Shown here: piece after piece, positions 24,932 through 50,481 of the stretch
Numbering within the stretch: position 1 is the first letter of the stretch
Layout: the number at the start of each line of letters is the position of its first letter
DNA from: Styela clava
Lineage: Eukaryota; Chordata; Ascidiacea; Stolidobranchia; Styelidae
NCBI RefSeq assembly: GCF_964204865.1
Contig: NC_135258.1
Location: 5,385,001-5,449,000, forward strand
Reading direction: 5' to 3'
DNA: 64,000 bases
Made by a program: the position numbers and the translations under genes
The notes under the pieces: generated by a model
What the model saw: the letters and a program-made list of their open reading frames with translations, nothing else
Told to the model about the DNA's origin: nothing
Database searches by the model: none

Positions 24932-27007
24932 ATGGAAACTGTGCCTAAAGATTTCACTTATGTTGAAATCTGTATAGATGAAGACATAATATATGAAGCA
25001 AGTCATTTATCTGGGGGTTTTTCTTTATCGACCAATGACTGTAGAACATCTGATAGAGACAAAATTACAAATATTTCTGGCAACACTACAATCAAAGATA
25101 ATGGCAATGCTGATATCAATGATAAATATATGCTATGTGAAGACACGGGAGAATTTACGAGCCATAACCAAGATACTGTTAGAGCTAATATAAACAGTAC
25201 TGTTGTCTATGAAAAAGACAATCATGAATTTGATTCTGTCATGGCGGTACAGGAGCAGAATGAATCTAATGCTGATCTTCTAACTGGTTCCAATTTAGGG
25301 TTCTTATCAAATGGTGAGTTATCTGACTATCTTCAAGAGGATTTGCCTAACTGTACAGATAACGCCTATCAAATTGAAAAGGGCCTAATTACTGATGAAG
25401 GGCTAACTAATACCACTTGTCTAGGTGATAAGAATGAACCGAAATTGCTCACCAGTATTGATAAGGCTTATCTAACTGATAACAGGCAGAAATCGTCTGA
25501 TTGTAATGAAGGCACCCATCTGAGTGATAAGGAGTTAACTACTGATAACACTTCTTTAAATGCTACTTCTTTAAGTGATGAATATCTCATTATTAATAAG
25601 GATTTCATTACTGATGAAAATTGTTTTGAGATAGCTCGCAGTCTTTTGAATGATATTATTGATTATATCATCAAAAAAGATATTTCTAATAAAACTGAAA
25701 TTTGTAACATATGTGAGAGGATGTTCGACTCGTCAGATAAATTGGAAAGGCATTTAAAGTTCCACAAAAAAGGTCGAAAAGTACTATATTGCCATGTGTG
25801 TGGCAAGGATTTTGATCAAAAATCGCATCTGGAGTATCATATTATGGTGTTTCACACCGGTGTAAAGCCTTATACATGTGAAATATGCGGGAAGACTTTC
25901 ACTCATAAATCGTCATTAAACATGCACATAAAATCTCACACATCTCAACCAAATGTTCCTTGTGAAATATGCGGAAAAAAGTTTTGGACAAAACACATCT
26001 TAAATACGCATAAGAAGAAACGACATATGGGGAAGCCTTTTGTTTGTACCATTTGTGGAAGCTCTTTTAGTCAAAAAAAAAGTTTGGTAAGACATGTGAA
26101 CCAGCATCCGCCACATATATGTGAAATATGTGGCAAGAAGTTCGACAATTATAAAAGTCTTCGCTGGCATTTTCCTTCTCATAAACCGAGCTGCCCTGAG
26201 CATGTCTTTGGGGACGATGCGAACACTTTTTTATGCAAAGTTTGTAAAAGAACATTTCGTCGACGACAAGACCTGACTTTCCATTCGCAAGCTCATGCTC
26301 CAAGAGTTCATAAATGTCAAGTTTGCGGGGCTGGTTATGTTCGCGATAGCTTTTTAAAGAAGCATATGATTGCACACTCGAACAGACCATATAAATGTAA
26401 ATTATGTGGGAAAAGTTTTCATTATGAATGGTCGTTAGAAAATCATCAAAAATATCATACAGGATTTAAGCGCTTGGGTTGCCACATTTGCGGAAGAAGA
26501 TATTATTTTAAACACCGCTTGGCTATACATCTAAACCATCATAAAAATGTGATAACTGAAAATGCTGTACCTAGTAATGATTCTGAATTCACTCAGCAAA
26601 CTTCTTCTACATTACAATGTGGAAGAAAGAAGATAGATGAAGCATCTGGAATTGGTAGCACAGCACCAAGTAATGGAGGTAATTGTATTTCCGTAGGACA
26701 AAAAGGGAACTCACAAACATCAACATTCACAATAGGGGAAGCTGAGGAATTCAATCTTGGCTCTGTGAAATTAATCGGGCATAAAATAGTATTCTCTCCT
26801 GAAGTGAATTCATTGTCTCTCCCTTCTGAACAAACTCAAGCAATTGCAATTTTAGATGCTAAATCGATACTCACATTTGCGATGCATAATTTCTCGAAAA
26901 AAACTAACGAATCAGTTAAGGTGCCAAAGATGACTAACATAATGACAATCAGAGAGGGGGAATCTGATCCATATAAGATCAGGACTATAGGTGATGAGCA
27001 CTCATAA
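24932..27007 (+). CDS. C2H2 zinc-finger protein, array copy 1 (10 fingers)
   Basis: 691 residues, one exon. A 3' splice acceptor (tatacttttag) ends three bases before the ATG. Residues 1-257 are acidic and repetitive (LTTD/LSD blocks) with a conserved start TYVEICIDEDIIYEAS. Ten C2H2 fingers fill 258-537. Linkers are often not the TGEKP type, and several are longer. The C-terminal 150 residues are conserved in all copies (EFNLGSVKL..GHKIVFSPEV). It is the most diverged member. Contact-position differences from the others are visible in finger 3 (HKSS), finger 5 (QKKSLVR) and finger 9 (YEWSLEN). It is probably a nuclear DNA-binding protein; targets are unknown. No KRAB, BTB, SCAN or ZAD module is recognisable, so the N-terminal region may be a lineage-specific effector domain. 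Confidence 0.9.
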   Translation: METVPKDFTYVEICIDEDIIYEASHLSGGFSLSTNDCRTSDRDKITNISGNTTIKDNGNADINDKYMLCEDTGEFTSHNQDTVRANINSTVVYEKDNHEFDSVMAVQEQNESNADLLTGSNLGFLSNGELSDYLQEDLPNCTDNAYQIEKGLITDEGLTNTTCLGDKNEPKLLTSIDKAYLTDNRQKSSDCNEGTHLSDKELTTDNTSLNATSLSDEYLIINKDFITDENCFEIARSLLNDIIDYIIKKDISNKTEICNICERMFDSSDKLERHLKFHKKGRKVLYCHVCGKDFDQKSHLEYHIMVFHTGVKPYTCEICGKTFTHKSSLNMHIKSHTSQPNVPCEICGKKFWTKHILNTHKKKRHMGKPFVCTICGSSFSQKKSLVRHVNQHPPHICEICGKKFDNYKSLRWHFPSHKPSCPEHVFGDDANTFLCKVCKRTFRRRQDLTFHSQAHAPRVHKCQVCGAGYVRDSFLKKHMIAHSNRPYKCKLCGKSFHYEWSLENHQKYHTGFKRLGCHICGRRYYFKHRLAIHLNHHKNVITENAVPSNDSEFTQQTSSTLQCGRKKIDEASGIGSTAPSNGGNCISVGQKGNSQTSTFTIGEAEEFNLGSVKLIGHKIVFSPEVNSLSLPSEQTQAIAILDAKSILTFAMHNFSKKTNESVKVPKMTNIMTIREGESDPYKIRTIGDEHS

Positions 27008-27132
27008 TAAGGGGGAGTTGATCGCCGCACCATGCTAAGCTTTAGGAATACTCTTGACAAGGTACCTCTGATTACTCTATGCTGGTTAGAGTCTCATGGG
27101 GCGTAACTATTTCCATACCCCACATGGACAGG

Positions 27133-28611
27133 TATGGTGGCCCATCGTTGTCACTCGTAAAATTGAAAAATAAAAATAAATTAAAAAAATAGTTGTGAAA
27201 AAACATTAAAATAAAATGAGAAAAAAATAAAATGCAAAAAAAAAAGTTAAAAATAAAGCGAAAATAAAATAAAAACGAAATAAAAAAAAGCAAATAAATA
27301 AACGTGAATAAAAAGGTTGACAACGATTTCATTTTGAGAAAATTTGCTACTGCTTGGGACCAACGTTGTCATGCATAATCCTACGCGCACAAACTGGGTT
27401 TCTAACTCACTGATTTTCTTGAGCAATATCCAATAAATTCAAAACGAAAATGTTCTCTAAATTCTCCATGCTACAAGTTTGACTAGAAGTAATATATTTA
27501 TTATGTTGATAAGAGAATATAGAATTGAGTACGAAAATTCGGGAAATTTGTTTTTACGTGTAGAAGGTAATTAAAGTGCTGCTCAACTGCTCAGTTGTCT
27601 AGCTAGACACTCTTGCGATACCGGTACCATCTGACCGCAATTGTACCTATGCAAGACCTCTTTTCAGCCATTGTAATAAGTACCTGTATAGTAATCGTAA
27701 TTTGTAATAACTGCAAAACTAAAATGTGAATAATTCACAAAGCACAGACTTGAATTATTAGAAAAAAGACTGTGTGCATAAAGTAGCCTAGTTAGACTCG
27801 TCCGTCGGCTCTAGCCACTACTGTTCGATCGTACAACCACGAGGCGATTAGGGTTAGACCTGATTTCAATGGAACGTGCATTTCGGCATGTGCATACGGT
27901 ATGGCATACCGTACAGCCGTAACGTACCGATCCAGACGAATGATAAATCACGCGGGCTCAACCATTTATTTCAATCCTACCGCGATTCACCATATTATTC
28001 TACTAGACTATCCGTATTTCCCACTCGTGTCATGCGTGACTATATGCTGGGTACCGGTACGATCAGACAGTATCGGTATCGCACGAGTGTCCGGACAACT
28101 GAGCATTTAAGCAGCATTCTCCAATTCAATTACCTTCCACACGTAAAAACAAATTTCTCGAATTTTCGTATTCAATTCTATATTCTCTTATCGATATTTT
28201 AATTATATATATTACTTCTAGTTGAACTTGTATCATGGAGAATTTATAGAACATTTGCATATTAAATTTATTGAATATTGCTCAAGAAAATTAGTAATGA
28301 GTTAGAAACCCAGGGAACACCGTTTGTGCGCGTAGGATTATGCATGACAACGTTGGTCCCAAGCCGAAGCAAATTTTCTCAAAATAAAAACACGTGACAA
28401 CGATGGGCCACGAGGCGGCCCATCGTTGTCAACCGTTTATATTTTCTTTTTATTCACTTTTTTTTTTTTTTTTCACCTTTTTTTATTCCGTTTTTATTTT
28501 ATTTTTGTTTTTATTTTTAATTTTTTTTTTTACATTTTATTTATGTTTTTTCAGAACTATTTTTTTTATTTTAATTTTCAATTTTACGCGTGACAACGAT
28601 GGGCCACCATA
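27133..28611. mobile_element. Large foldback transposon (1479 bp) in the 3' flank of zinc-finger gene 1
   Basis: The left end TATGGTGGCCCATCGTTGTC and the right end GACAACGATGGGCCACCATA are exact inverses. Homology runs inward about 500 bp on each side (arms about 27133-27633 and 28047-28611, including ...TTTGTTTTTACGTGTAGAAGG and CGCGTAGGATTATGCATGAC). The right arm holds an extra internal head-to-head pair of the terminal motif (28392-28431). The flanks GACAGG / GACGGG look like a 6-bp target duplication with one change. The sibling units show the uninterrupted site (CATGNACTGGTAACC). The centre has ACCGGTACC motifs and no transposase. Confidence 0.88.
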
Positions 28612-29505
28612 GACGGGTAACCGAACAAGCTAGGCTTTAGTTATTCCCATATCGGGTATGGGCTGGTAACCAGTTGAGGTTTACCATATGATTAAGCCGT
28701 CTTACCGACTTTCCTATTCTCTCCCTATTTTTGATGACGTCCAGAGATTAATAAAGTTGCATGCATTCAGGCAACCACAGAAATGCAGAGAGCTATTGAA
28801 TCTGCTAATTTGAATATGGATGGGAGACTTCAGCATTTCAAGTCATTACTATAAAACGAACATCCAAAAGGTAGAATTTCTACATAACTGGCATTCTTTG
28901 AATAAACTATTGGAATTAAAATTTCTTTGTTTAATGAAGGGCATGCTCACAGTAAACGAATGAGAGTTTGTGTCTGAAAACTTTTCTTAATACCATTTTT
29001 TTTAAATATGAATTTCATATATTATACGGTAATCAAATTCCTTTTTGTAGAATTTGCTGTTTTTTCTTTCGAAGTATGATCATTATCAATCTGGCTGTGT
29101 CTCCAATATTATTCACTTGCTGATAAAACATTTTGTTTGACTATTTGTATTGAAATTGGTCACAAGAAGGGTTTCGTATAAAGGAGGACTGAGATTACTG
29201 GTAGCCAATAACACAACGCAAATTTATTTTCATTGGATATCTGAGGTCAGTCAGTCAATACACATATTACATATAAAAGTAATGATTTTTGTGCGAAATT
29301 CGCCACATTTTAGAAAGTTACACACTCTCCCATTCCCACCACCTAACGCCATTGATTGTCTACAAAGTTGTCATGTTCAAACTCAACTCTCGTGAATTTT
29401 CTTTTGTGTGTTGTCATAATTTTTCTATCTTATGGTTATTAGTTTTTTTTTTTTAAATCACCCTATTAGGCTGATTTTTTAGTTCAGAAATAAATTTATT
29501 GTCCA

Positions 29506-29642
29506 AGAGAGTGTGCCGGTTTTATGTGAATCACACTACAACGGCGAGGAGTCCAGAAATCTTCTTGCACATGACTATTTCTACATGGGAATCGAACCTG
29601 CGAACCAACGCAGGGTATAGCATCATGTGCGGTATCGCCGAG
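29506..29642 (-). repeat. SINE head, inverse orientation (unit 2)
   Basis: It reads GAGTCCAGAAATCTTCTTGC, GGAATCGAACCTGCGAACCAACGCAGGG and ATCGCCGAG, the inverse of the tRNA-derived SINE head with its box B. Orthologous pieces are at about 33826-33910, 38219-38360 and 42671-42815. The head lies inverted to the SINE about 480 bp downstream. Confidence 0.65.
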
Positions 29643-29822
29643 CATTAACATGATTTTCACTTGCCTTGGTATACTTTATTATTTGCTGATGCTGAAGAAG
29701 GGAGCAATGGAATGTTCACCTCAGGTTTGTGGATTTAAAAAAAATTCACAAATACCTCCAGACTTTGTAATAAGAAAAATATGACTGCGACCTCTTGGTT
29801 TTTGGAAAATGTTTTTTTTTTC

Positions 29823-30020
29823 TATAGGGTGTCCATAAACATAGTCTTAATTTTTTTCAGATTGCGAAGGGAATTTATCGATACAATGTTTTGTTTTGGC
29901 CCTTAAATGAAGTAAAAATACTTAACTATTACTGATTAAAAAAACAACAAACTTGGTCAAGATTTATTAGAACTGACTTCATAGTGAAATTGTAAATAGA
30001 CTTTATGGACACCCTGTATA
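29823..30020. mobile_element. TA-type MITE (array unit 2)
   Basis: ATAGGGTGTCCATAAAC ... GACTTTATGGACACCCTGTATA. The same position in later units is occupied by copies at 34091-34271, 38554-38745 and 43004-43189, so insertion preceded the duplications. Confidence 0.75.
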
Positions 30021-30117
30021 TCTGGATACCATGAGGCAATAGAATTACCAGACTTCTCTGCGCCACACAGTGGTTCATGTAACTGACCGATTACGACTTC
30101 TTTCAATTCCATATCTG

Positions 30118-30436
30118 ACACGGCGGTGTGGCTTATCGTGCTAAGCGTTAGGCATATGCTGCCACCGCACCTCTGATTACCCTGCGTGGGTTTGAATCTC
30201 ATGCAGGGATGGTTACGTGCGAGAGGATTGCTGGACTCCTCACCGCCGATTGCGCGGTTAATGTAAACGCTGGCCGGTTACGGCTTCTTCCACCATCAAG
30301 TCCATGCTTCCAAAAACAAATACCTAACTAATCCCATACCTGAGTTGGAATGGAAACTGGACGAGAGGCCATGGTTCGCCATATGGTTAAGCCGTCTTAT
30401 CGGCTTTCCTCTTCCCCAGGACACATATGTAAATCC
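30118..30436 (+). repeat. tRNA-derived SINE (unit 2; also 34370-34695, 38846-39138, 43285-43600)
   Basis: The head GACACGGCGGTGTGGCTTATCGTG ... is followed by box-B-like GGTTTGAATCTCATGC. The conserved body has GAGAGGATTGCTGGACTCC, GGTCGGTTACGGCTTC and CCATCAAGTCCATGCTTCC, and the tail CATATGGTTAAGCCGTCTTATCGGC. The tRNA-like head, composite body and many copies support a SINE. The poly(A) or simple-repeat end is unclear. Confidence 0.75.
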
Positions 30437-30774
30437 TATTCGTGGTTTACCTCCCTCATGAAAATTATCAATGTTGAATCTGAATACCCTGTAGGAGAGG
30501 ATTGCTGGGATCCTTAGTGTCACATTGTGGTTTATGTAACGTCTTATGGCTTCTTCAAAATTCATATTCACATTTGCTGCTTAATCTCAGTTGCAAAGTG
30601 TCTCAGACTAGATGACTCTGTGAGTCTTTTCGCGTCAACTGCAACAAGCCGATATCTGTTTGTCATTTATTTACAATATATTATTTATTCATTCTTCATA
30701 TCGCGCATTCTTTTTGCATGGCGAAAATATATATCTGAAGTATATCATGCCAGATTTTCTGAGTTATTCTAGCT

Positions 30775-30973
30775 CAGTGGTTCTCAACCAGGGAATTGTA
30801 GTCCATCAAGAGGCCCACAAGGCCCATTCTCTCTACAAGATAACTCTCCTTCCTACTGAGTTTCATTGCTTAATATGGTTATTTCGTGGGGCGTTTTCAC
30901 TGTTTGAGCATAATGAAATTGATAAACAGGGGGGCCATGAGGCCAAAAGCCATAAAATGTTGAGAACCCACTG
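30775..30973. mobile_element. hAT-type MITE directly before zinc-finger gene 2
   Basis: CAGTGGTTCTCAACCAGGG ... GTTGAGAACCCACTG. It ends about 40 bases before the ATG of gene 2, so the splice acceptor of the gene lies immediately outside the element. Equivalent copies precede genes 3 (35074-35312), 4 (39523-39762) and 5 (43990-44211, left end shortened). Confidence 0.75.
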
Positions 30974-31012
30974 CCAACTTATTATCCTTGTTTTTTTTTA
31001 TAACTTCAGAAT

Positions 31013-33100
31013 ATGGGATCTGTACCTAGAGATTTAACTTATGTTGAAATCTGTCTTGATGAAGACATAATATATGAAGCAAGCCTTTTATCTGAGGAGA
31101 TAAATAGAGAGGAAATTACAAGTATTTCTGGCAACACTACAGTCGAAGATATTTGCAATGTTGATAATAGTGATGAATATACGCCATGTGAAGACACAGG
31201 AGAATTTACGAGCCATAAGCAAGAGACTGCTAGAACTGATATAAACAGCACTGTTATCTTTGAAGAAGATAATCATGAATTTGATTCTGAAGAATCCTCC
31301 GTCATAACAATGCAGGAGCAGAATGAACCCACTGCTGTTTTTGTAACTGATTCCAACTCGGGGTTCTTATCAAAAGATGAATTATCTGACTATCTTCAAC
31401 AGGAATTGCCCAGCGGTATTGATAATGCATATCTAAGTGATAATGGCTTAATGACTGATGATGGGCACAATAATAACACCCGTCCACGACTAGGTGATAA
31501 GAATGGATCGAAATTGCCCACCAGTATTGATAACGCTCATCCATTCGATAACAGGCGGAAATCGTCTAATTGTAATGTAGGCACCTATCTGAGTGATAAG
31601 GAATTAACTACTGATAAAGAAGGAATGTTACCCAACTCCAAAGATAGCACTTCTCTAAGTGATAAAGATCTCATTGTTGATAAGGATTCCCATACTAATG
31701 AGAATTATTTTGAGATAGCTCGCAGTTTCTTGAATGACGTTATTGATTATATTATCGAAAAAGAAGTTTCTGATAAAACTGAAAGTTGTAATATATGTGA
31801 GAGGAGATTCGGCACATTAGCCAAATTGGAAAGACATTTGAAGTTTCACTATAAAGGCCGAAAAATACTTTATTGCTCTGTGTGTGGCAAAGATTTTGGT
31901 CAAAAATCGCATCTGGAGTATCATATGGTGCTGCACACCGGTGTAAAGGCGTATTCATGTGAAATATGCGGAAAGACTTTCACTCAAAAATCGTCGTTAA
32001 ACATGCATATAAAATCTCACACATCTCAACCAAATGTTCCTTGCGAGATATGCGGAAAAAAGTTTTGGACAAAATACATCTTAAATTTACATACGAGGAA
32101 ACGACATATGGGGTTGCCCTTTGTTTGTAACATTTGCGGAAGTTCTTTTAGTGGAAAACAAGGTTTGCTACACCATGTGAGCCTACATCCTCCACATATA
32201 TGTGAAACATGTGGCAAGGAGTTTGACAATTATAAAAGTCTTCGCTTGCATAAAGATTCTCATAAACCAAGTTGGCCTGAGCATGTCTTTGCGGACGGTG
32301 TAAAAGGTTTTCGCTGCGAAGTTTGTAGAAGAACATTTCGACGAAGACAAGACTTTACTTTCCATTCTCAAGCTCATGCTCCAAAAGTTCATAAGTGTCA
32401 AGTTTGTGGTGCTGGATTTGTTCGTGATAGCTATTTAAAGAAGCATATGATTGCACACTTAGAAAGACCGTATAAATGTGAATCATGCTGGAAAAGTTTC
32501 CATCATAAAAAGTCGTTAGAAAATCATCAAATATATCATACAGGAATAAAGCGCTTTGATTGCAACATTTGCGGAAAAGGATATTATTGGAAACATCGCT
32601 TGGCTATACATCTAAAACTTCATAAAAATGTAAAAACTGAAAATGCTGTACATAGTAATGATTCTGAATTTGCTCAGCAAACTTCTTCTACATTACAATG
32701 TAGAAAAAAGGAGATGGATGGAGCATCTGGAATTGGTAGCACAGCACCAAGTAATGAAGGTGTAATGTTGGGAAATTGTATTTCCGTAGGACAAAAAGGG
32801 AATTCACAAACATCTACATTCACAATAGGGGAAGCTGAGGAATTCAATCTCGGCTCTATGAAATTTATCGGGCATAAAATAGTATTCTCTCCTGAAGTGA
32901 ATCCATTGTCTCTCCCTTCTGAACAAACTCGAACAATCGCAATTTTGGATGCTGAATCGATAGTGAAATTCGCTATGCATAACATGTCGAAAAAAACTAA
33001 AGAACCAGTTAAGGTTCCAAAGATGGCGAACATAATGACAATAAAAGAGGGGGATTCTGATCCCTATAATATCAGGACTATGGGTGATGAGCACTCATAA
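31013..33100 (+). CDS. C2H2 zinc-finger protein, array copy 2 (10 fingers)
   Basis: 695 residues, one exon. The acceptor tttataacttcag ends three bases before the ATG. The N terminus is MGSVPRDLTYVEIC where copies 1 and 3-5 have METV. The acidic N-terminal region is the longest of the family. Ten fingers lie at 259-537 and the conserved C-terminal region follows. Contact positions are intermediate: finger 2 as in copies 1 and 5 (QKSH), finger 3 QKSSLNM, finger 5 GKQGLLH as in copies 3-5 except the last residue. Finger 9 has CESCWKSF, an unusual Trp for Gly after the second Cys. All zinc-ligand Cys and His are kept. It is an intact gene by sequence. Confidence 0.9.
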   Translation: MGSVPRDLTYVEICLDEDIIYEASLLSEEINREEITSISGNTTVEDICNVDNSDEYTPCEDTGEFTSHKQETARTDINSTVIFEEDNHEFDSEESSVITMQEQNEPTAVFVTDSNSGFLSKDELSDYLQQELPSGIDNAYLSDNGLMTDDGHNNNTRPRLGDKNGSKLPTSIDNAHPFDNRRKSSNCNVGTYLSDKELTTDKEGMLPNSKDSTSLSDKDLIVDKDSHTNENYFEIARSFLNDVIDYIIEKEVSDKTESCNICERRFGTLAKLERHLKFHYKGRKILYCSVCGKDFGQKSHLEYHMVLHTGVKAYSCEICGKTFTQKSSLNMHIKSHTSQPNVPCEICGKKFWTKYILNLHTRKRHMGLPFVCNICGSSFSGKQGLLHHVSLHPPHICETCGKEFDNYKSLRLHKDSHKPSWPEHVFADGVKGFRCEVCRRTFRRRQDFTFHSQAHAPKVHKCQVCGAGFVRDSYLKKHMIAHLERPYKCESCWKSFHHKKSLENHQIYHTGIKRFDCNICGKGYYWKHRLAIHLKLHKNVKTENAVHSNDSEFAQQTSSTLQCRKKEMDGASGIGSTAPSNEGVMLGNCISVGQKGNSQTSTFTIGEAEEFNLGSMKFIGHKIVFSPEVNPLSLPSEQTRTIAILDAESIVKFAMHNMSKKTKEPVKVPKMANIMTIKEGDSDPYNIRTMGDEHS

Positions 33101-33104
33101 AAAA

Positions 33105-33312
33105 TGGACAGTTGACCGTCGTGTCGTGCTGAGCGTCAGGAATACGTTGCCATCGAACCTATGAACATCCTACGCTTAAAATCTCATGGGCATTATTATC
33201 ACCATGCCCGACATGAACTGGTAACCAAACGAGCTAAGCATTAGTTATTCCTATACCGGGGCTGTGGTTTGCCATATGATTAAGCCATCTTATCGACTTC
33301 CCTTTTCCCTCC
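33105..33312 (+). repeat. Degenerate SINE in the 3' region of gene 2 (also behind genes 1, 3, 4, 5)
   Basis: It begins four bases after the stop codon: GTTGACCGTCGTGTCGTGCTGAGCGTCAGG, then GCCCGACATGAACTGGTAACC and CATATGATTAAGCCATC. The same piece follows every copy of the gene, so it was present before duplication and is probably part of the 3' UTR. AATAAA motifs follow at about 33353 and 33370. Behind gene 1 the piece is split by the foldback transposon. Confidence 0.7.
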
Positions 33313-35349
33313 GAACAGCCATAAGTTAGTGAGTCTACATAACTGGCATTTTTTGAATAAACTATTGGAATAAAAATTTCTTTGTTTGATAAAGGGCATG
33401 CTCAACAGTAAACGAATGAGAGTTTGTGTCTGAAAACTTTTCTTAAAAATATTTTTTAAAATATGAATTTTATATAATTTGCCGTTTTTCCCCTCAAAGT
33501 ATGATCCTTATCAATCTGGTTGTGTCTCTGCTGTTATTCACTTGCTGATAAAACATTTTGTTGGACTATTTGTATTAAAATTGGGTCACAAGAAGGGTTT
33601 CGTATAAAGGAGGACTGACAATACTGATAGCCAATAAGTACACCGCAAATTTGTTATTTATTGAATATCTGAGGTCAGACAGTCTATATACATATTACAT
33701 AAAAAATTAATGATTTTTGTGAAAACTTCGCCACATTTTAGAAAGTTTCACATCTCCCATTCCCACCACCTGACGCCATTGATTGTCCATAAAGTTTTCC
33801 CTTTTGTGTGTTGTCATTTTTTATAGCCTCTTGCACATGACTATTCTCACATGGGAATTGAGCCTGCGAACCAACGCAGGGTATAGCATGATGTGCGACA
33901 TCGCCGAGTGTTAACATGATTTTCACTTGTCCTGGTATACTTTTATATTTGGTGATGCTGAGGCATGGGCACAATGGCCTGTGCACCCCATGGTTGTGAA
34001 TTTGAAAAAAAAAACGCAAACAAATTTTCTACATTTCTCAAATTCTTTATAGCCACAGTTTACCTCTGTCAATAAAATAGTTTTTGTTCTATAGGGTGTC
34101 CACAAACATGAAGTCTTCAAATTGCGAAGGGAATTTATCGATACCATATATTGTTTTGGCCCTTAAATGAAGTAAAAATATTTGAACTATTACTGATTAA
34201 AAAAACAACAAACCTGGTCAAGGTTTATTGAGAACTGACTTCATAGCTAAATAGTATCGTCACCCTGTATATCTGGATACCATGAGGCAATAGAATTACC
34301 AGACTCCTCTGCGCCACAGAGTTGTTCATGTAACTGACTGATTACGGCTTCTCGCTCAATTCCATATCTGACGCGGCGGTGTGGCTCATCGTTCTAAGCT
34401 TTAAGAATACGCTTCCACCCCACCTCTGATTACCCTGCGTGGGTTTGAATCTCATGCAGGGATGGTTACGTGTGAGAGGATTGCTGGACTCCTCACCGCC
34501 GATTGCGTGGTTAATTTAACCAATGGTCGGTTACGGCTTCCTCCACCATCAAGTCCATGCTTCCAAAAACAAATAACTATCTAATCCCATACCCGACTTG
34601 GAACGGTAACCAGACGAGAGGCCATGGTTCACCATATGGTTAAGCCGTCTTATCGGCTTTCCTCTCCCCCAGGACTCATGTAAATCCTATCCGTGTTTTA
34701 CCTCCCTCATGAAAATTATCACGGTTGAATCCGAATACCCTGTATGAGAGAATTGCTGGAATACTTGGTGTCACATTGTGGTTTATGTAACATCTTATGG
34801 CTTCTTCAAACTCCATATCCACATTTGTTACTTCAACTCAGCTGCAAGCTGTCGCTGACTAGATGACTCTGTGAGTCTTTTCGCGTCAACTGCAACAAGC
34901 CGATATCTGTTTGTCATTTTGTTACATTATATTATTTATTCATTTTTCATATCGCGCATTGTTTTTGCATGATGAAAAAAATAAATATCTGAAGCTATCC
35001 CTGGTTACCTTATTAAATACTCATTTGCTTATATTGAACTATGTTGTGCCAGATTGTCTGAGTTATTTTAGCTCAGTGGTTCTCAACCAGTGATCTGTGG
35101 TCCATCAAGAGGCCCCTGATTTTTCTATTGTCTCTACAAGACAACTCCCCCTTCTTCTTAGTTTCATTGCTTGATAAGGTTATTTCGTGGGGTGTTTTCA
35201 CTGTTTGAGCATAATGAAATTTGGAATTGACACAGAAATGATAAACGGGGGCCATGAGTGCCAAAAGCCTTCAGAAGAGGGCCACAAGCCATAAAAAGGT
35301 TAAGAACCACTGTCAACTTATTATCTTTGTTTTTTTATAACTTTAGAAT
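33313..35349. other. Intergenic spacer of array unit 3
   Basis: No gene. It holds the TTGCTGATAAAACATTTTG block, inverse SINE head, TA-type MITE (34091-34271), SINE (34370-34695) and hAT-type element (35074-35312). The same order recurs in the spacers before genes 4 and 5. Confidence 0.7.
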
Positions 35350-37389
35350 ATGGAAACTGTGCTTAAAGATTTAACTTATGTTGAAATTTGTCTTGATGAA
35401 GACATAATATATGAAGCAAGCCTTTTATCTGAGGAGATAAATAGAGAGAAAATTACAAGTATTTCTGGAAACACTGCAGTCGAAGATATTTGCAATGCTG
35501 ATAATAGTGATAAATATGTGCCATGTGAAGACACAGGGGAATTTACGAGCCATAACCAAGATACTGCTAGAACTGATATAAACAGCACTGTTATCTTTGA
35601 AGAAGACAATAATGAATTTGATTCTGAAGAATCCTCCGTCATAGCAATGCAGGAGCAGAATGAACCCACTGCTGTTTTTGTAACTGATCTCAACTCAGGG
35701 TTCTTATCAAAAGATGAATTATCTGTTTATCTTCAACAGGGATCTATTGATAACGCCCATCAAAGTGATAATCGCTTAATTACTGATGAAGAGCAAAATA
35801 ATAAGTTAATCGGAGGTAATGGACAGAAATTGTCCAACTTTATTGATAACGCTCATGTAACTGATAACAGGCAGAAATCATCTGATTGTAATGAAGACAA
35901 TCTTCTGAGTGATAAGGTATTAACTACTGATAAAGGAGGAATATTGCAAAGTAATCATGATCTCATTATTGATAAGGATTCCCATACTAATGAGAAACAT
36001 TTTAAGATAGCTCGCAGTCTCTTGAATGATATTATTGATTATATTATCGAAAAAGAAATTTCTGATAAAACTGAAATTTGTAACATATGTGGGAGAGGAT
36101 TTGACTCATCAGCTAAGTTGGAAAGGCATTTGGAGTTCCACATAAGAGGTCGAAAAATACATTATTGCTCTGTGTGTGGCAAGGATTACGATCGAAAATC
36201 AAATCTGGAGTATCATATGGTACGACACACCGGTGTAAAGCCTCATACATGTGAAATATGCGGGCAGAGTTTCACCCAAAAACCATGGTATAACATACAC
36301 ATAAAATCACATACATCAAAACCAAATGTTCCTTGTGAAATATGCAGAAGAAAGTTTTGGGCAAAACACATCTTGAATAAACATAAGAGGAAACATCATA
36401 GTGGGTTGCCTTTTGTCTGTAATATTTGCGGAAGCTCTTTCAGTGGAAAACAAGGTTTGGTACAGCATGTGAACGTACATCCGCCACATATATGCGAAAC
36501 ATGTGGCAAAGAGTTTAATAATTATAAAAGTCTACGCTTGCATTTTCCCTCTCATAAACCAAGTTGGCCTGAGCATGTCTTTGCAGACGGTGTAAAAGGT
36601 TTTCGTTGCGAAGTTTGTAAAAGAACATTTCATCGAAGACAAGATCTGACTTTCCATTCGCAATCTCATGCTTCTAAAGTTTATAAATGTCAAGTTTGTG
36701 GTCTTGGATTCGTGAGGGATAGCTTTTTAAAGAAGCATATGATTGCACACTCAGAAAGACCGTATAAATGTAAATTATGCGTGAAAAGTTTCCATCATGA
36801 AAAGTCTTTAGAAAATCATCAAATATATCATACAGGAATAAAACACTTCGGTTGCCATATTTGTGGTAGAAGGTTCTATTGGAAACATCGCTTGGCTATA
36901 CATCTAAAACGCCATAAAAATGTAAAGACTGAAAATGCTGTACCTGGTAACGATCCTGAATTCGCTCAGCAGACTTCTACATTACAATGCGAAAAAATGG
37001 ATATGGATGAAGCATCTGGGATTGGTACTGTAGAACCCAATAATGGAAGTGTAATGTCGGGAAATTGTATTTCCATAGGACAAAAAGGGAACTCACAAAC
37101 ATCAACATTCGCGATAGGCGAAGCTGAGGAATTCAATCTTGGTTCTGTGAAATTTACCGGGCATAAAATAGTATTCTCTCCTGAAGTGAATTCATTGTCT
37201 CTCCCTTCTGAACAAACTCGAGCAATAGCAATTTTGGATGCTGAATCGATAGTGAAATTCGCTATGCATAACATGTCGAAAAAAACTAAAGAATCAGTTA
37301 AGGTACCAAAGATGGCGAACATAATGACGATAAAAGAGGGGGATTCTGATCCATATAAGATCAGGACTATGGGTGATGAGCACTCATAA
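35350..37389 (+). CDS. C2H2 zinc-finger protein, array copy 3 (10 fingers)
   Basis: 679 residues, one exon; the acceptor tttttataactttag ends three bases before the ATG. Fingers lie at 244-522. By eye it differs from copy 4 at about 17 residues. Finger 2 carries Arg282 and Asn285 at helix positions -1 and 3. Finger 3 has QKPWYNI, where Tyr replaces the usual core Leu at helix position 4. Finger 4 starts CEICRRKF. Finger 8 has GLGF where others have GAGF. The zinc ligands are intact. The N-terminal region lacks one acidic repeat present in copy 2. Confidence 0.9.
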   Translation: METVLKDLTYVEICLDEDIIYEASLLSEEINREKITSISGNTAVEDICNADNSDKYVPCEDTGEFTSHNQDTARTDINSTVIFEEDNNEFDSEESSVIAMQEQNEPTAVFVTDLNSGFLSKDELSVYLQQGSIDNAHQSDNRLITDEEQNNKLIGGNGQKLSNFIDNAHVTDNRQKSSDCNEDNLLSDKVLTTDKGGILQSNHDLIIDKDSHTNEKHFKIARSLLNDIIDYIIEKEISDKTEICNICGRGFDSSAKLERHLEFHIRGRKIHYCSVCGKDYDRKSNLEYHMVRHTGVKPHTCEICGQSFTQKPWYNIHIKSHTSKPNVPCEICRRKFWAKHILNKHKRKHHSGLPFVCNICGSSFSGKQGLVQHVNVHPPHICETCGKEFNNYKSLRLHFPSHKPSWPEHVFADGVKGFRCEVCKRTFHRRQDLTFHSQSHASKVYKCQVCGLGFVRDSFLKKHMIAHSERPYKCKLCVKSFHHEKSLENHQIYHTGIKHFGCHICGRRFYWKHRLAIHLKRHKNVKTENAVPGNDPEFAQQTSTLQCEKMDMDEASGIGTVEPNNGSVMSGNCISIGQKGNSQTSTFAIGEAEEFNLGSVKFTGHKIVFSPEVNSLSLPSEQTRAIAILDAESIVKFAMHNMSKKTKESVKVPKMANIMTIKEGDSDPYKIRTMGDEHS

Positions 37390-39799
37390 AAAATGGACAG
37401 TTGACCGCCCTGTCGTGCTCAGCGTCAGGAATACGTTGCAATCGAACCTCTGAATATCCTACGCTTAGAATCTCATGGGCATTATTATCACCATGCCAGA
37501 CATGAACTGGTAACCGGACGAGCTAAGCCTTAGTTATTCCTATACCGGGGCTGTGGTTTGCCATATGATTAAGCCATCTTATCGACTTTCCTTTTTCCTC
37601 CGAACAGCCATAAGTTAGTGAGTCTACACAACTGGCATTTTTTGAATAAACTATTGGAATAAAAATTTCTTTGTTTGATAAAGGGCATGCTCACAGTAAA
37701 CAAATGAGAGTTTGTGTCTGAAAACTTTTATTAAAAATATTTTTTAAAATATGAATTTCATATAATTTGCCGTTTTTCCCCTCAGAGTATGATCCTTATC
37801 AATCTGGTTGTGTCTCTGCTGTTATTCACTTGCTGATAAAACATTTTGTATGACTATTTGTATTGAAATTGGTCACAAGAAGGGTTTCGTATAAAGGAGG
37901 ACTGACAATACTGATAGCCAATAAGTACACCGCAAATTTGTTATATATTGAATATCTGAGGTCAGACAGACAGTCTATATACATATTTCATGAAAAATCG
38001 ATGATTTTTGTGAAAACTTCGCTACATTTTAGAAAGTTACACATCTCCCATCCCCACCACCTGACGCCATTTATCGTCTATAAAGTTTTCCCTTTTGTGT
38101 GTTGTCATTTTTTATAGCCCAGTTCAAAATAAATTTTCTATCTCATAGTTATTGCGCTTTTAGTTTTTTTCGAAATCACCCTATTTGGCTGATTTACTAG
38201 TTCGGAAATAAAATTAATGTTGAAGAGAGTGTGCCGGTTTTATGTGAACCACCCTACGACGGCAAGGAGTCCAGCAATCCTCTTTCACATGACTATTCTC
38301 ACATGGGAATTGAGCCTGCGAACCAACGCAGGGTATAGCATGATGTGCGACATCGCCGAGTGTTAACATGATTTTCACTTGTCCTGGTATACTTTTATAT
38401 TTGGTGATGCTGAGGCATGGGCACAATGGCCTGTGCACCCCATGGTTGTGAATTTGAAAAAAAAAACGCAAACAAATTTTCTACTAGAAAACTACATTTC
38501 TCAAATTCTTTATAGCCACAGTTTACCTCTGTCAATAAAATAGTTTTTGTTCTATAGGGTGTCCACAAACATGAAGTCTTCAAATTGCGAAGGGAATTTA
38601 TCGATACCATATATTGTTTTGGCCCTTAAATGAAGTAAAAATACTTGAACTATTACTGATTAAAAAAACAACAAACCTGGTCAAGATTTATTAGAACTGA
38701 CATTTATAGCTAAATTGTAAATAGACTTCATGGACACCCTGTATATCCTGGATACCATGAGGCAATAGAATTACCAGACTCCTCTGCGCCACAGAATGGT
38801 TCATGTAACTGACCCATTACGACTTCTTTCAATTCCATATCTGACGCGGCGGTGTGGCTCATCGTGCTAAGCTTTAGGAATACGCTTCCACCCACCTCTG
38901 ATTACTCTGCGTGAGTTTGAATCCCATGCAGGGATGGTTACGTGCGAGAGGATTGCTGGACTCCTCACCGCCGATTGTTACGGCTTCCCCCACCATCAAG
39001 TCCATGCTTCCAAAAACAAACAAACAACTAATCCCATACCCCACTTGGAACGGTAACCGGACGAGAGGCCATGGTTCACCATACGGTTAAGCCGTCCTAT
39101 CGGCTTTCCTCTCCCCCAGGACACATATGTAAATCCTATTCCTGGTTTACCTCCCTCATGAAAATTATCACTGTTGAATCCGAATACCCTGTATGAGAGA
39201 ATTGCTGGGATCCTTAGTGTCACATTGTGGTTTATGTAACATCTTATGGCTTCTTCAAACTCCATATCCACATTTGTTACTTCAACTCAGCTGCAAGCTG
39301 TCGCTGACTAGATGACTCTGTGAGTCTTTTCGCGTCAACTGCAACAAGCCGATATCTGTTTGTCATTTTGTTACATTATATTATTTATTCATTTTTCATA
39401 TCGCGCATTGTTTTTGCATGATGAAAAAAATAAATATCTGAATCTATCCCTGGTTACCTTATTAAATACTCATTTGCTTATATTGAACTATGTTGTGCCA
39501 GATTGTCTGAGTTATTTTAGCTCAGTGGTTCTCAACCAGTGATCTGTGGTCCATCAAGAGGCCCCTGATTTTTCTATTGTCTCTACAAGACAACTCCCCC
39601 TTCTTCTTAGTTTCATTGCTTGATAAGGTTATTTCGTGGGGTGTTTTCACTGTTTGAGCATAATGAAATTTGGAATTGACCACAGAAATGATAAACGGGG
39701 GCCATGAGTGCCAAAAGCCTTCAGAAGAGGGCCACAAGCCATAAAAAGGTTGAGAACCACTGTCAACTTATTATCTTTGTTTTTTTATAACTTTAGAAT
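37390..39799. other. Intergenic spacer of array unit 4
   Basis: Same organisation as the spacer before gene 3. It starts with the degenerate SINE behind the stop codon (37390-37600). Then come the TTGCTGATAAAACATTTTG block, inverse SINE head (38219-38360), TA-type MITE (38554-38745), SINE (38846-39138) and hAT-type element (39523-39762). No gene. Confidence 0.7.
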
Positions 39800-41839
39800 A
39801 TGGAAACTGTGCTTAAAGATTTAACTTATGTTGAAATTTGTCTTGATGAAGACATAATATATGAAGCAAGCCTTTTATCTGAGGAGATAAATAGAGAGAA
39901 AATTACAAATATTTCTGGAAACACTGCAGTCGAAGATATTTGCAATGCTGATAATAGTGATAAATATGTGCCATGTGAAGACACAGGGGAATTTACGAGC
40001 CATAACCAAGATACTGCTAGAACTGATATAAACAGCACTGTTATCTTTGGGGAAGACAATCATGAATTTGATTCTGAAGAATCCTCCGTCATAGCAATGC
40101 AGGAGCAGAATGAACCCACTGCTGTCTTTGTAACTGATCTCAACTCAGGGTTCTTATCAAAAGATGAATTATCTGTTTATCTTCAACAGGGATCTATTGA
40201 TAACGCCCATCAAAGTGATAATCGCTTAATTACTGATGAAGAGCAAAATAATAAGTTAATCGGAGGTAATGGACAGAATTTGTCCAACTTTATTGATAAC
40301 GCTCATGTAACTGATAACAGGCAGAAATCATCTGATTGTAATGAAGACAATCTTCTGAGTGATAAGGTATTAACTACTGATAAAGGAGGAATATTGCAAA
40401 GTAATCATGATCTCATTATTGATAAGGATTCCTATACTAATGAGAATTATTTTAAGATAGCTCGCAGTCTCTTGAATGATATTATTGATTATATTATCGA
40501 AAAAGAAATTTCTGATAAAACTGAAATTTGTAACATATGTGGGAGAGGATTTGACTCGTCAGCTAAGTTAGAAAGGCATTTGGAGTTCCACATAAGAGGT
40601 CGAAAAATACATTATTGCTCTGTGTGTGGCAAGGATTACGATCGAAAATCAAATCTGGAGTATCATATGGTACGACACACCGGTGTAAAGCCTCATACAT
40701 GTGAAATATGCGGGCAGAGTTTCACCCAAAAACCATGGTATAACATACACATAAAATCACATACATCAAAACCAAATGTTCCTTGTGAAATATGCGGAAG
40801 AAAGTTTTGGGCAAAACACATCTTGAATAAACATAAGAGGAAACATCATAGTGGGTTGCCTTTTGTCTGTAATATTTGCGGAAGCTCTTTCAGTGGAAAA
40901 CAAGGTTTGGTACAGCATGTGAACGTACATCCGCCACATATATGCGAAACATGTGGCAAAGAGTTTAATAATTATAAAAGTCTACGCTTGCATTTTCCCT
41001 CTCATAAACCAAGCTGGCCTGAGCATGTCTTTGCAGACGGTGTAAAAGGTTTTCGTTGCGGAGTTTGTAAAAGAACATTTCATCGAAGACAAGATCTGAC
41101 TTTCCATTCGCAAGCTCATGCTTCTAAAGTTCATAAATGTCAAGTTTGTGGTGCTGGATTCGTGCGGGATAGCTTTTTAAAGAAGCATATGATTGCACAC
41201 TCAGAAAGACCGTATAAATGTGAATTATGCGTAAAAAGTTTTCATCATAAAAAGTCTTTAGAAAATCATCAAATATATCATACAGGAATAAAACACTTCG
41301 GTTGTCATATTTGTGGTAGAAGGTTCTATTGGAAACATCGCTTGGCTATACATCTAAAACGCCATAAAAATGTAAAGACTGAAAATGCTGTACCTGGTAA
41401 CGATTCTGAATTCGCTCAGCAGACTTCTACATTACAATGCGAAAAAATGGATATGGATGAAGCATCTGGAATTGGTACTGTAGAACCCAATAATGGAAGT
41501 GTAATGTCGGGAAATTGTATTTCCATAGGACAAAAAGGGAACTCACAAACATCAACATTCGCGATAGGCGAAGCTGAGGAATTCAATCTTGGTTCTGTGA
41601 AATTAACCGGGCATAAAATAGTATTCTCTCCTGAAGTGAATTCATTGTCTCTCCCTTCTGAACAAACTCGAGCAATAGCAATTTTGGATGCTGAATCGAT
41701 AGTGAAATTCGCTATGCATAACATGTCGAAAAAAACTAAAGAATCAGTTAAGGTACCAAAGATGGCGAACATAATGACGATAAAAGAGGGAGATTCTGAT
41801 CCCTATAATATCAGGACTATGGGTGATGAGCACTCATAA
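39800..41839 (+). CDS. C2H2 zinc-finger protein, array copy 4 (10 fingers)
   Basis: 679 residues, one exon, same acceptor and start as copy 3. Fingers 244-522. Finger 2 again has Arg282 and Asn285. Finger 7 begins CGVC where the other copies have CEVC or CKVC. The C-terminal segment reads VKLTGHK, where copies 3 and 5 have VKFTGHK. It ends DPYNIRTMGDEHS. The frame is intact, and near-identity to copies 3 and 5 points to recent duplication or gene conversion. Confidence 0.9.
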   Translation: METVLKDLTYVEICLDEDIIYEASLLSEEINREKITNISGNTAVEDICNADNSDKYVPCEDTGEFTSHNQDTARTDINSTVIFGEDNHEFDSEESSVIAMQEQNEPTAVFVTDLNSGFLSKDELSVYLQQGSIDNAHQSDNRLITDEEQNNKLIGGNGQNLSNFIDNAHVTDNRQKSSDCNEDNLLSDKVLTTDKGGILQSNHDLIIDKDSYTNENYFKIARSLLNDIIDYIIEKEISDKTEICNICGRGFDSSAKLERHLEFHIRGRKIHYCSVCGKDYDRKSNLEYHMVRHTGVKPHTCEICGQSFTQKPWYNIHIKSHTSKPNVPCEICGRKFWAKHILNKHKRKHHSGLPFVCNICGSSFSGKQGLVQHVNVHPPHICETCGKEFNNYKSLRLHFPSHKPSWPEHVFADGVKGFRCGVCKRTFHRRQDLTFHSQAHASKVHKCQVCGAGFVRDSFLKKHMIAHSERPYKCELCVKSFHHKKSLENHQIYHTGIKHFGCHICGRRFYWKHRLAIHLKRHKNVKTENAVPGNDSEFAQQTSTLQCEKMDMDEASGIGTVEPNNGSVMSGNCISIGQKGNSQTSTFAIGEAEEFNLGSVKLTGHKIVFSPEVNSLSLPSEQTRAIAILDAESIVKFAMHNMSKKTKESVKVPKMANIMTIKEGDSDPYNIRTMGDEHS

Positions 41840-44247
41840 AAAATGGACAGTTGACCGCCATGTCGTGCTCAGCGTCAGGAATACGTTGCCATCGAACCTC
41901 TGAACATCCTACGCTTAGAATCTCATGGGCATTATTATCACCATGCCCAACATGAACTGGTAACCGGACGAGCTAAGCGTTAGTTATTCCTATACCGGGG
42001 CCGTGGTTTGCCATATGATTAAGCCATCTTATCAACTTTCCTTTTCTCTCCGAACAGCCATAAGTTAGTGAGTCTACATAACTGGCATTTTTTGAATAAA
42101 CTATTGGAATAAAAATTTCTTTGTTTAATAAAGGGCATGCTCACAGTAAACGAATGAGAGTTTGTGTCTGAAAACTTTTCTTAAAAATATTTTTTAAAAT
42201 ATGAATTTCATATAATTTGCCGTTTTTCCCCTCAAAGTATGATCCTTATCAATCTGGTTGTGTCTCTGCTGTTATTCACTTGCTGATAAAACATTTTGTT
42301 GGACTATTTGTATTAAAATTGGGTCACAAGAAGGGTTTCGTATAAAGGAGGACTGACAATACTGATAGCCAATAAGTACACCGCAAATTTGTTATATATT
42401 GAATATCTGAGGTCAGACAGACAGTCTATATACATATTTCATGAAAAATCGATGATTTTTGTGAAAACTTCGCTACATTTTAGAAAGTTACACATCTCCC
42501 ATCCCCACCACCTGACGCCATTGATCGTCCATGAAGTTTTCCCTTTTGTGTGTTGTCATTTTTCATAGCCTAGTTCAAAATAAATTTTCTATCTTATAGT
42601 TATTGCGTTTTTAGTTTTTTTTCGAAATCACCCTATTTGGCTGATTTTCTAGTTCGGAAATAAATTTAATGTTGAAGAGAGTGTGCTGGTTTTATGTGAA
42701 CCACCCTACGACAGCGAGGAGTCCAGCAATCCTCTTGCACATGACTATTCTCACATGGGAATTAAGCCTGCGAACCAACGCAGGGTATAGCATGATGTGC
42801 GACATTGCCGAGTGTTGACATGATTTTCACTTGTCCTGGTGTACTTTTATATTTGGTGATGCTAAGGCATGGGCACAATGGCATGTTCACCCCATGGTTG
42901 TGAATTTGAAAAAAAAATGCAAACAAATTTTCTACTAGAAAACTACATTTCTCAAATTCTTTATAGCCACAGTTTACCTCTGTCAATAAAATAGTTTTTG
43001 TTCTATAGGGTGTCCACAAACATGAAGTCTTCAAATTGCGAAGGGAATTTATCGATACCATATATTGTTTTGGCCCTTGAATGAAGTAAAAATACATGAA
43101 CTATTACTGATTAAAAAAACAAACCTGGGCAAGGTTTATTGAGAACTGACTTCATAGCTAAGTTGTAAATAGTATGGACACCTTGTATATCTGGATACCA
43201 TGAGGCAATAGAATTACCAGACTTCTCTGCGCCACAGGGTGGTTCATGTAACATACTGATTACGACTTCTTTCAATTCCATATCTGACGCGGCGGTGTGG
43301 CTCATCGTGCTAAGCTTTAGGAATACGCTTCCACCCCACCTCTGATTACTCTGCGTGAGTTTGAATCCCATGCAGGGATGGTTATGTGCGAGAGGATTGC
43401 TGGACTCCTCACCGCCGATTGCGTGGTTAATGTAACCGATGGTCGGTTACGGCTTCCTCCACCATCAAGTCCATGCTTCCAAAAACAAATAACTAACTAA
43501 TCCCATACCCGACTTGGAACGGTAACCGGACGAGAGGCCATGGTTCACCATATGGTTAAGCCGTCTTATCGGCTTTCCTCTTCCCCAGGACACATATGTA
43601 AATCCTATTCCTGGTTTACCTCCCTCATGAAAATTATTACTGTTTAATCCGAATACCCTGTAGGAGAGAATTGCTGGGATCCTTAGTGTCACATTGTGGT
43701 TTATGTAACATCTTATGGCTTCTTCAAACTCCATATCCACATTTGTTACTTCAACTCAGCTGCAAGCTGTCGCTGACTAGATGACTCTGTGAGTCTTTTC
43801 GCGTCAACTGCAACAAGCCGATATCTGTTTGTCATTTTGTTACAATATATTATTTATTCATTTTTCATATCGCGCATTGTTTTTGCATGACGAAAAAATA
43901 AATATCTGAATCTATCCCTGGTTACCTTATTAAATACTCATTTGCTTATATTGAACTATGTTGTGCCAGATTGTCTGAGTTATTTTAGCTCAGTGGTTCT
44001 CAAGAGGCCCCTGATTTTTCTATTGTCTCTACAAGACCACTCCCCTTTCTTCTTAGTTTCATTGCTTGATAAGGTTATTTCGTGGGGTGTTTTTTGACTG
44101 TTTGAGCATAATGAAATTGGGAATTGACCACAGAAATGATAAACGGGGGCCATGAGTGCCAAAAGCCTTCAGAAGAGGGCCACAAGCCATAAAAGGTTGA
44201 GAACCACTGTCAACTTATTATCTTTGTTTTTTTTATAACTTTAGAAT
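41840..44247. other. Intergenic spacer of array unit 5
   Basis: Degenerate SINE behind the stop codon (41841-42055), inverse SINE head (42671-42815), TA-type MITE (43004-43189), SINE (43285-43600), and a hAT-type element with a shortened left end (43990-44211). No gene. Confidence 0.7.
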
Positions 44248-46287
44248 ATGGAAACTGTGCTTAAAGATTTAACTTATGTTGAAATTTGTCTTGATGAAGA
44301 CATAATATATGAAGCAAGCCTTTTATCTGAGGAGATAAATAGAGAGAAAATTACAAGTATTTCTGGAAACACTGCAGTCGAAGATATTTGCAATGCTGAT
44401 AATAGTGATAAATATGTGCCATGTGAAGACACAGGGGAATTTCCGAGCCATAACCAAGATACTGCTAAAACTGATATAAACAGCACTGTTATCTTTGAAG
44501 AAGACAATAATGAATTTGATTCTGAAGAATCCTCCGTCATAGCAATGCAGGAGCAGAATGAACCCACTGCTGTTTTTGTAACTGATCTCAACTCAGGGTT
44601 CTTATCAAAAGATAAATTATCTGTTTATCTTCAACAGGGATCTATTGATAACGCCCATCAAAGTGATAATCGCTTAATTACTGATGAAGAGCAAAATAAT
44701 AAGTTAATCGGAGGTAATGGACAGAAATTGTCCAACTTTATTGATAACGCTCATGTAACTGATAACAGGCAGAAATCATCTGATTGTATTGAAGACAATC
44801 TTCTGAGTGATAAGGTATTAACTACTGATAAAGGAGGAATATTGCAAAGTAATCATGATCTTATTATTGATAAGGATTCCTATACTAATGAGAATTATTT
44901 TAAGATAGCTCGCAGTCTCTTGAATGATATTATTGATTATATTATCGAAAAAGAAATTTCTGATAAAACTGAAATTTGTAACATATGTGGGAGAGGATTT
45001 GACTCATCAGCTAAGTTGGAAAGGCATTTGGAGTTTCACATAAGAGGTCGAAAAATACATTATTGCTCTGTGTGTGGCAAGGATTACGATCAAAAATCAC
45101 ATCTGGAGTATCATATGGTACGACACACCGGTGTAAAGCCTCATACATGTGAAATATGCGGGCAGAGTTTCACCCAAAAACCATGGTATAACATACACGT
45201 AAAATCACATACATCAAAACCAAATGTTCCTTGTGAAATATGCGGAAGAAAGTTTTGGGCAAAACACATCTTGAATAAACATAAGAGGAAACATCATAGT
45301 GGGTTGCCTTTTGTCTGTAATATTTGCGGAAGCTCTTTCAGTGGAAAACAAGGTTTGGTACAGCATGTGAACGTACATCCGCCACATATATGCGAAACAT
45401 GTGGCAAAGAGTTTAATAATTATAAAAGTCTACGCTTGCATTTTCCCTCTCATAAACCAAGCTGGCCTGAGCATGTCTTTGCAGACGGTGTAAAAGGTTT
45501 TCGTTGCGAAGTTTGTAAAAGAACATTTCATCGAAGACAAGATCTGACTTTCCATTCGCAAGCTCATGCTTCTAAAGTTCATAAATGTCAAGTTTGTGGT
45601 GCTGGATTCGTGCGGGATAGCTTTTTAAAGAAGCATATGATTGCACACTCAGAAAGACCGTATAAATGTGAATTATGCGTAAAAAGTTTTCATCATAAAA
45701 AGTCTTTAGAAAATCATCAAATATATCATACAGGAATAAAACACTTCGGTTGTCATATTTGTGGTAGAAGGTTCTATTGGAAACATCGCTTGGCTATACA
45801 TCTAAAACGCCATAAAAATGTAAAGACTGAAAATGCTGTACCTGGTAACGATTCTGAATTCGCTCAGCAGACTTCTACATTACAATGCGAAAAAATGGAT
45901 ATGGATGAAGCATCTGGAATTGGTACTGTAGAACCCAATAATGGAAGTGTAATGTCGGGAAATTGTATTTCCATAGGACAAAAAGGGAACTCACAAACAT
46001 CAACATTCGCGATAGGCGAAGCTGAGGAATTCAATCTTGGTTCTGTGAAATTTACCGGGCATAAAATAGTATTCTCTCCTGAAGTGAATTCATTGTCTCT
46101 CCCTACTGAACAAACTCGAGCTATAGCAATTTTGGATGCTGAATCGATAGTGAAATTCGCTATGCATAACATGTCGAAAAAAACTAAAGAATCAGTTAAG
46201 GTACCAAAGATGGCGAACATAATGACGATAAAAGAGGGGGATTCTGATCCCTATAAGATCAGGACTATGGGTGATGAGCAATCATAA
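44248..46287 (+). CDS. C2H2 zinc-finger protein, array copy 5 (10 fingers)
   Basis: 679 residues, one exon, acceptor tttttataactttag three bases before the ATG. It differs from copy 4 at about 16 residues. Finger 2 has Gln282 and His285, like copies 1 and 2, not Arg/Asn as in copies 3 and 4. The final residues are MGDEQS instead of MGDEHS. All ten fingers are intact. Its 3' flank beyond about 46450 resembles that of copy 1 rather than copies 2-4 (shared GAGACTTCAGCATTT), so it is the outer right end of the array. Confidence 0.9.
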   Translation: METVLKDLTYVEICLDEDIIYEASLLSEEINREKITSISGNTAVEDICNADNSDKYVPCEDTGEFPSHNQDTAKTDINSTVIFEEDNNEFDSEESSVIAMQEQNEPTAVFVTDLNSGFLSKDKLSVYLQQGSIDNAHQSDNRLITDEEQNNKLIGGNGQKLSNFIDNAHVTDNRQKSSDCIEDNLLSDKVLTTDKGGILQSNHDLIIDKDSYTNENYFKIARSLLNDIIDYIIEKEISDKTEICNICGRGFDSSAKLERHLEFHIRGRKIHYCSVCGKDYDQKSHLEYHMVRHTGVKPHTCEICGQSFTQKPWYNIHVKSHTSKPNVPCEICGRKFWAKHILNKHKRKHHSGLPFVCNICGSSFSGKQGLVQHVNVHPPHICETCGKEFNNYKSLRLHFPSHKPSWPEHVFADGVKGFRCEVCKRTFHRRQDLTFHSQAHASKVHKCQVCGAGFVRDSFLKKHMIAHSERPYKCELCVKSFHHKKSLENHQIYHTGIKHFGCHICGRRFYWKHRLAIHLKRHKNVKTENAVPGNDSEFAQQTSTLQCEKMDMDEASGIGTVEPNNGSVMSGNCISIGQKGNSQTSTFAIGEAEEFNLGSVKFTGHKIVFSPEVNSLSLPTEQTRAIAILDAESIVKFAMHNMSKKTKESVKVPKMANIMTIKEGDSDPYKIRTMGDEQS

Positions 46288-50377: not shown

Positions 50378-50481
50378 TTTGTAAAATAAATTAAATATTC
50401 TGAAATATATAAAATATTATTAGTTATAATCAGGGCTTTTTAGTCATACTATGAATCATAGTCTATGATACTTATTAATTT

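Follow-up and report, generated by a model that had tools for sequence, protein, structure and literature searches.

Comparison with known zinc finger expansions

The closest described systems to the locus studied here are the KRAB-type poly-zinc finger clusters of tetrapods, the FiNZ genes of cyprinid fish and the poly-zinc finger expansions of insects (D. melanogaster and A. gambiae). We analyzed five tandem C2H2 zinc finger genes (copies 1 to 5, hereafter c1-c5) in a 64,000-nucleotide stretch of the genome of the ascidian Styela clava (contig NC_135258.1, our C10, positions 5385001-5449000), which is referred to as the window. Like the tetrapod clusters, the array consists of tandem C2H2 genes with recent, probably lineage-specific duplicates; however, no KRAB was found in it, and its finger linkers are not TGEKP and mostly not seven residues long. 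In addition, vertebrate expansions were reported by Emerson and Thomas to show positive selection at DNA-contact residues (PMC2604467), whereas the maximum likelihood ratio of nonsynonymous to synonymous change (omega) at the contacts of the array is below 1. FiNZ is a conserved 28-residue sequence, with about 700 such genes described in zebrafish (PMC10547256). Like FiNZ, the array probably represents a lineage-specific C2H2 family, and its proteins likewise have acidic N termini; it numbers only five genes, however, and an N-terminal domain could not be demonstrated. Insect expansions are likewise lineage-specific, and Table 2 of PMC2604467 gives no significant positive selection for them. 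In both respects the array appears similar. No ZAD, the hallmark of insect zinc finger proteins, was found in the array frames, in which it differs from the insect genes. The locus is a genuine C2H2 array confined to a single site of its genome, in part young and of a known general type. It probably represents a small transcription factor family, present at one locus, that grows by tandem duplication and, it appears, by gene conversion.

A single-locus array of ten-finger genes

All five frames are intact and contain ten C2H2 motifs each, as a preliminary description of this DNA had stated (Table 1). They lie on the plus strand, and Pfam zf-C2H2 was over its cut-off in every one (93.6-112.8 bits versus 25.2). 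It had also reported that all copies share the motif TYVEIC.DEDIIYEAS and start with an acidic region; both points hold, with a net charge of the pre-finger region between -31 and -38. The copies are arranged head to tail in units of about 4.45 kb for c3-c5 (start-to-start spacing 4450 for c3-c4 and 4448 for c4-c5) and about 4.3 kb for c2-c3; c1 has its gene body and short upstream stretches in common with the other units. Protein identity was 73-74% between c1 and the other four copies and 80-81% between c2 and c3-c5, and 17 (c3-c4), 19 (c3-c5) and 16 (c4-c5) of 679 residues differed among the remaining copies. Identities and spacing support the proposed tandem array of young c3-c5 and older c1 and c2; the near-identity of c3-c5 stands, and their reported difference of about 16-17 residues becomes 16-19.

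Table 1. Positions of the array genes and associated features in the window.
Feature	Position	Strand	Description
Copy 1 (c1)	24932..27007	+	691 aa, ten C2H2 fingers; copy that diverges most
Copy 2 (c2)	31013..33100	+	695 aa, ten fingers; probable mosaic with c1-like and c3-like tracts
Copy 3 (c3)	35350..37389	+	679 aa, ten fingers
Copy 4 (c4)	39800..41839	+	679 aa, ten fingers
Copy 5 (c5)	44248..46287	+	679 aa, ten fingers
Tandem array of c2-c5	28857..46468	+	Head-to-tail units; spacing given in the text
Candidate splice acceptor	35331..35349	+	T-rich; TTTAG ends three bases before the c3 ATG
MITE-like element	24560..24825		Upstream of c1; terminal inverted repeats
MITE-like equivalents	35074-35312 (c3), 39523-39762 (c4), 43991-44209 (c5); left end 30775 (c2)		From alignment
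Dispersed repeat, ~320 bp	34369..34692		In c3 unit; equivalents in c2, c4 and c5 units
RsmB/F-type methyltransferase frame	15941-18232		Flanks array; Pfam
Kelch-repeat protein frame	19366-20622		Flanks array; Pfam
MITE, miniature inverted-repeat transposable element.

Synonymous distances among c3, c4 and c5 were 0.020-0.030, and allelic distances of this size are plausible in a very diverse animal. On this ground, c3-c5 could partly reflect misassembly, in which haplotypes of a single gene were strung together. We regard this as very unlikely, since there are three such copies with near-constant spacing, all on one contig and aligned in register with the unit of c2, an older copy.

The genome (376.6 Mb in 379 contigs) was then searched with separate parts of the protein. 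The N-terminal query (c3, 239 aa) gave five matches among 11 scored candidates and the C-terminal query (143 aa) five among 8; in both cases these were solely the array frames. The finger query (c1) retrieved the five frames followed by generic fingers; among the 135 candidates scored out of 906, the best of these had 46% identity over 137 residues. Within its own genome, the family was thus located at a single site.

Besides zinc finger models, no Pfam family exceeded its cut-off in the five frames, so that no known effector domain was found there, and KRAB, BTB, SCAN and ZAD were absent from hits up to E = 1, in line with the modules said earlier to be lacking. DUF7659 and DUF3285 appeared in the tails with scores under the cut-off and were taken as chance. 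A comparison of both c3 tails with solved structures gave no match up to E = 10, and among the papers listed in literature searches, judged mostly by title, none was seen to describe the family.

Constraint along the protein

We found that constraint sits in the fingers and the C-terminal part. For c1-c2, c1-c3 and c2-c3, pairwise omega on gap-free columns was 0.74, 0.82 and 0.83 for the N-terminal region, with intervals that include 1, versus 0.39, 0.28 and 0.25 for the fingers and 0.42, 0.36 and 0.30 for the C-terminal region. Maximum likelihood estimates from the five genes under two models were 0.93-1.03, 0.31-0.36 and 0.34-0.42, respectively. When every column of each pair was used, N-terminal omega was 0.69-0.83 in seven older pairs; in the young pairs it was 0.84 (c3-c4), 1.69 (c3-c5) and 0.64 (c4-c5), values derived from nine, eight and eleven changes.

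A part of the preliminary description that was not supported is its N-terminal domain, which is not demonstrable given omega of ~0.7-1.0 among older copies and the lack of an invariant run beyond chance. Invariant columns accounted for 122 of 262 in this region; a conserved block was sought and rejected, the longest invariant run being 9 (permutation p = 0.12) and the best segment having p = 0.40. It should be cautioned that high identity among recent duplicates is no evidence of a conserved domain. The N-terminal frames are nevertheless open in all five copies despite several length differences. In simulations of random substitution in c3, 0.4% of 3000 trials kept the N-terminal frame open with all 138 changes that separate c1 from c3, and 6.0% did so with half as many. 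Because the frames are open, omega is near 1 and no run exceeds chance, this region is kept as coding sequence without a recognizable conserved domain. A match to a CoRNR-like corepressor motif precedes the fingers in all five copies; since shuffling the c3 N terminus 5000 times also gave one in 11% of cases, it was not retained as evidence.

DNA-contact residues and selection

Helix positions -1, 2, 3 and 6 were taken as DNA contacts. These differed at 14 of 40 positions in c1-c2, 17 of 40 in c1-c3 and 11 of 40 in c2-c3. For c1-c3, the excess over other finger residues (28/171) was significant (p = 0.0009), also when the zinc ligands, which were unchanged in all seven pairs compared, were left out (28/131, p = 0.013). 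The excess in c1-c2 (p = 0.029) and c1-c5 (p = 0.005) weakened without the ligands (p = 0.15, others 30/131, and p = 0.059, respectively). There was no excess in c2-c3 (p = 0.39) or c2-c5 (p = 0.51), both p = 1.0 without the ligands (others 35/131 in c2-c3). Among young copies, contacts differed at no position in c3-c4 and at two in c3-c5. When scaled by the gene-wide synonymous distance, change was 0.87 at contacts and 0.44 at other finger residues for c1-c2, 0.76 and 0.35 for c1-c3, and 0.54 and 0.54 for c2-c3; the contact value for c4-c5, 1.05, rests on two differences. Contact omega was 0.23-0.52 in the seven older pairs, and the maximum likelihood estimate was 0.41-0.44 versus 0.29-0.35 for the remaining finger residues. 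At contacts, change is up to twice as rapid as in the rest of the fingers, with no clear sign of positive selection, for which five genes in three lineages offer little power.

These data bear on transposon restraint, in which the fingers would bind local repeat families while the tails bring in silencing partners, in the manner of KRAB or FiNZ zinc finger proteins. The contact excess in three pairs and the scaled contact changes (0.54-0.87 among c1, c2 and c3, and the c4-c5 value) point in this direction, as does the fact that a young tandem array adjoins repeats. The acidic N terminus also fits, FiNZ being described as rich in glutamic acid, like KRAB (PMC10547256). On the other hand, contact omega is below 1 by both estimates, c2-c3 and c2-c5 lack the excess, the linkers are non-canonical, and only five members were found in the genome. 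We consider transposon restraint a possible but unlikely role.

For comparison, only control pairs alike in finger number and in length, with an identity of 0.6-0.999, were kept (11 control rows). Among those with eleven fingers, the pair nearest in divergence, L027-L038, differed at 17 of 44 contacts and 29 of 143 other finger residues (scaled 0.65 and 0.24), and L026-L032 had scaled values of 1.05 for contacts and 0.54 for other residues. Older control pairs showed larger ratios, and the near-identical L036-L039 and L036-L040 had no contact changes. The idea that the array is less arms-race-like than other zinc finger genes of the genome was dropped, because L027-L038, of similar divergence, resembles c1-c3. 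Two other zinc finger frames, L006 (G000:C10:2917877) and L007 (C10:5270796), are 92.6% identical, and their contact change exceeds the gene-wide synonymous rate (ratio 2.41; contacts versus other finger residues, p = 0.095); compared with the array, this pair may be a stronger case of diversifying specificity.

Probable mosaic structure of copy 2 and finger linkers

Copy 2 is probably a mosaic of the kind that gene conversion produces. Of 319 sites informative for c1, c2 and c3, 140 grouped c2 with c1 and 179 with c3, and they were clustered along the gene: the runs value was reached by none of 5000 permutations, also at the codon level. Third positions were split 12:30 in the N-terminal region versus 37:27 in the fingers (p = 0.005), and conversion or unequal crossing-over is therefore favored over selection at the protein level. 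The array also lacks the canonical TGEKP-type seven-residue linker: in every copy, TGE[KR]P was found in none of nine linkers and a length of seven residues in three of nine, versus 139 and 287 of 303 linkers, respectively, in 28 other zinc finger loci of the genome.

Several points weigh against the reading of a distinct single-locus family shaped by duplication and conversion. The restriction to one locus holds within this genome alone, and clustering of informative sites could partly stem from lineage-specific rate changes instead of conversion. The linker contrast between one copy and the other loci (p = 0.005 for TGE[KR]P and 4e-6 for seven residues) is overstated to an unknown degree, because the 28 loci had been selected for resemblance to consensus fingers or to those of c1, which favors canonical linkers, and include repeated genes (L002 = L003 = L041; L004 = L031).

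Repeats around the array

The surroundings had been called transposon-dense, and a partial check agrees to the extent that the ~320 bp repeat occurs in the c2-c5 units and the MITE-like element, presumably of hAT type, lies upstream of all five genes. Terminal repeats like CAGTGGTTCTCAACC had 14 matches in the window (up to 2 mismatches) versus 0.12 expected. Because the position of this element is common to all copies, including c1, it is suggested to predate the array. Among 40 scored of 8296 candidates, the ~320 bp repeat was found at 84-87% in at least 36 places outside the array, and the 1521-bp upstream stretch matched over its whole length at the array's four places alone. An extra copy of the ~320 bp repeat is located downstream of the array (47515-47833). 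In the c1-c2 interval, 567 positions align in inverted orientation at 76% (27133-27637 versus 28611-28060), which may represent a fold-back element. Further downstream, at 54844-55234, a 196-bp unit occurs twice in tandem with 97% matching.

Upstream regions and flanking frames

A candidate splice acceptor was found three bases before each of the five ATGs. Such sites precede 104 of 1290 plus-strand ATGs in the window; the five acceptors are thus suggestive because they are conserved, not because they are rare. They raise the possibility that an upstream exon, spliced to this acceptor, encodes an effector domain, in which case the real proteins would be longer. An upstream reading frame could be joined at the acceptor in frame with the ATG, and the far-upstream regions of c1 and c3 have in common a 99 bp stretch that is 82% alike. 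However, 20 open stretches upstream of c1 and c3 contained no Pfam family over the cut-off and no KRAB, BTB, SCAN or ZAD at E up to 0.1, although short exons could be missed because these were 20 of 119 stretches (at least 20 aa) in the two regions. We judge such an exon improbable. The Ciona spliced leader pattern (GTA added, up to 1 mismatch) had no match in the genome, and a different leader is still possible.

With regard to other features of the window, a minus-strand frame of 274 aa at 49592-50416 had no Pfam family over the cut-off; it may resemble C11orf49/CSTPP1. Scans of the window against Rfam (gathering scores) and with ARAGORN found nothing. In the assembly, COX1, sought as a guide to the mitochondrial code, gave no match, and a GH6 exon was detected over the Pfam cut-off (35.4 bits versus 27). 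GH6 is not known from animals other than tunicates, so this exon makes a tunicate source likely. In tunicates, two genes with GH6 domains, CesA and GH6-1, have been described (PMC7464555).

Proposed function and implications

Under the reading of a small transcription factor family, the ten C2H2 fingers would bind DNA, as expected from their family, and the proteins would act as sequence-specific nuclear transcription factors. Most likely, the acidic, fast-changing N-terminal region would serve as a flexible tail with a regulatory role and the C-terminal region, which is under stronger constraint, as a second functional part. For c3-c5, added copies would mainly raise dosage, whereas between c1, c2 and c3-c5 duplication may let specificity drift. 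The data establish the anatomy of the genes, the array, the limits of the family within the genome and the pattern of constraint, whereas the DNA target, direction of regulation and expression of the array genes are inferred. It is also conceivable, if doubtful, that this is a tunicate-specific family without any known effector, in which conversion between neighbors recombines fast-changing acidic tails with different finger sets and thereby gives rise to novel regulators within a chordate lineage not known to have KRAB.

The array offers a clean case of C2H2 family growth outside vertebrates, in which old, mosaic and young copies lie next to each other. If the family bound repeats, it would become a candidate for transposon control in tunicates.

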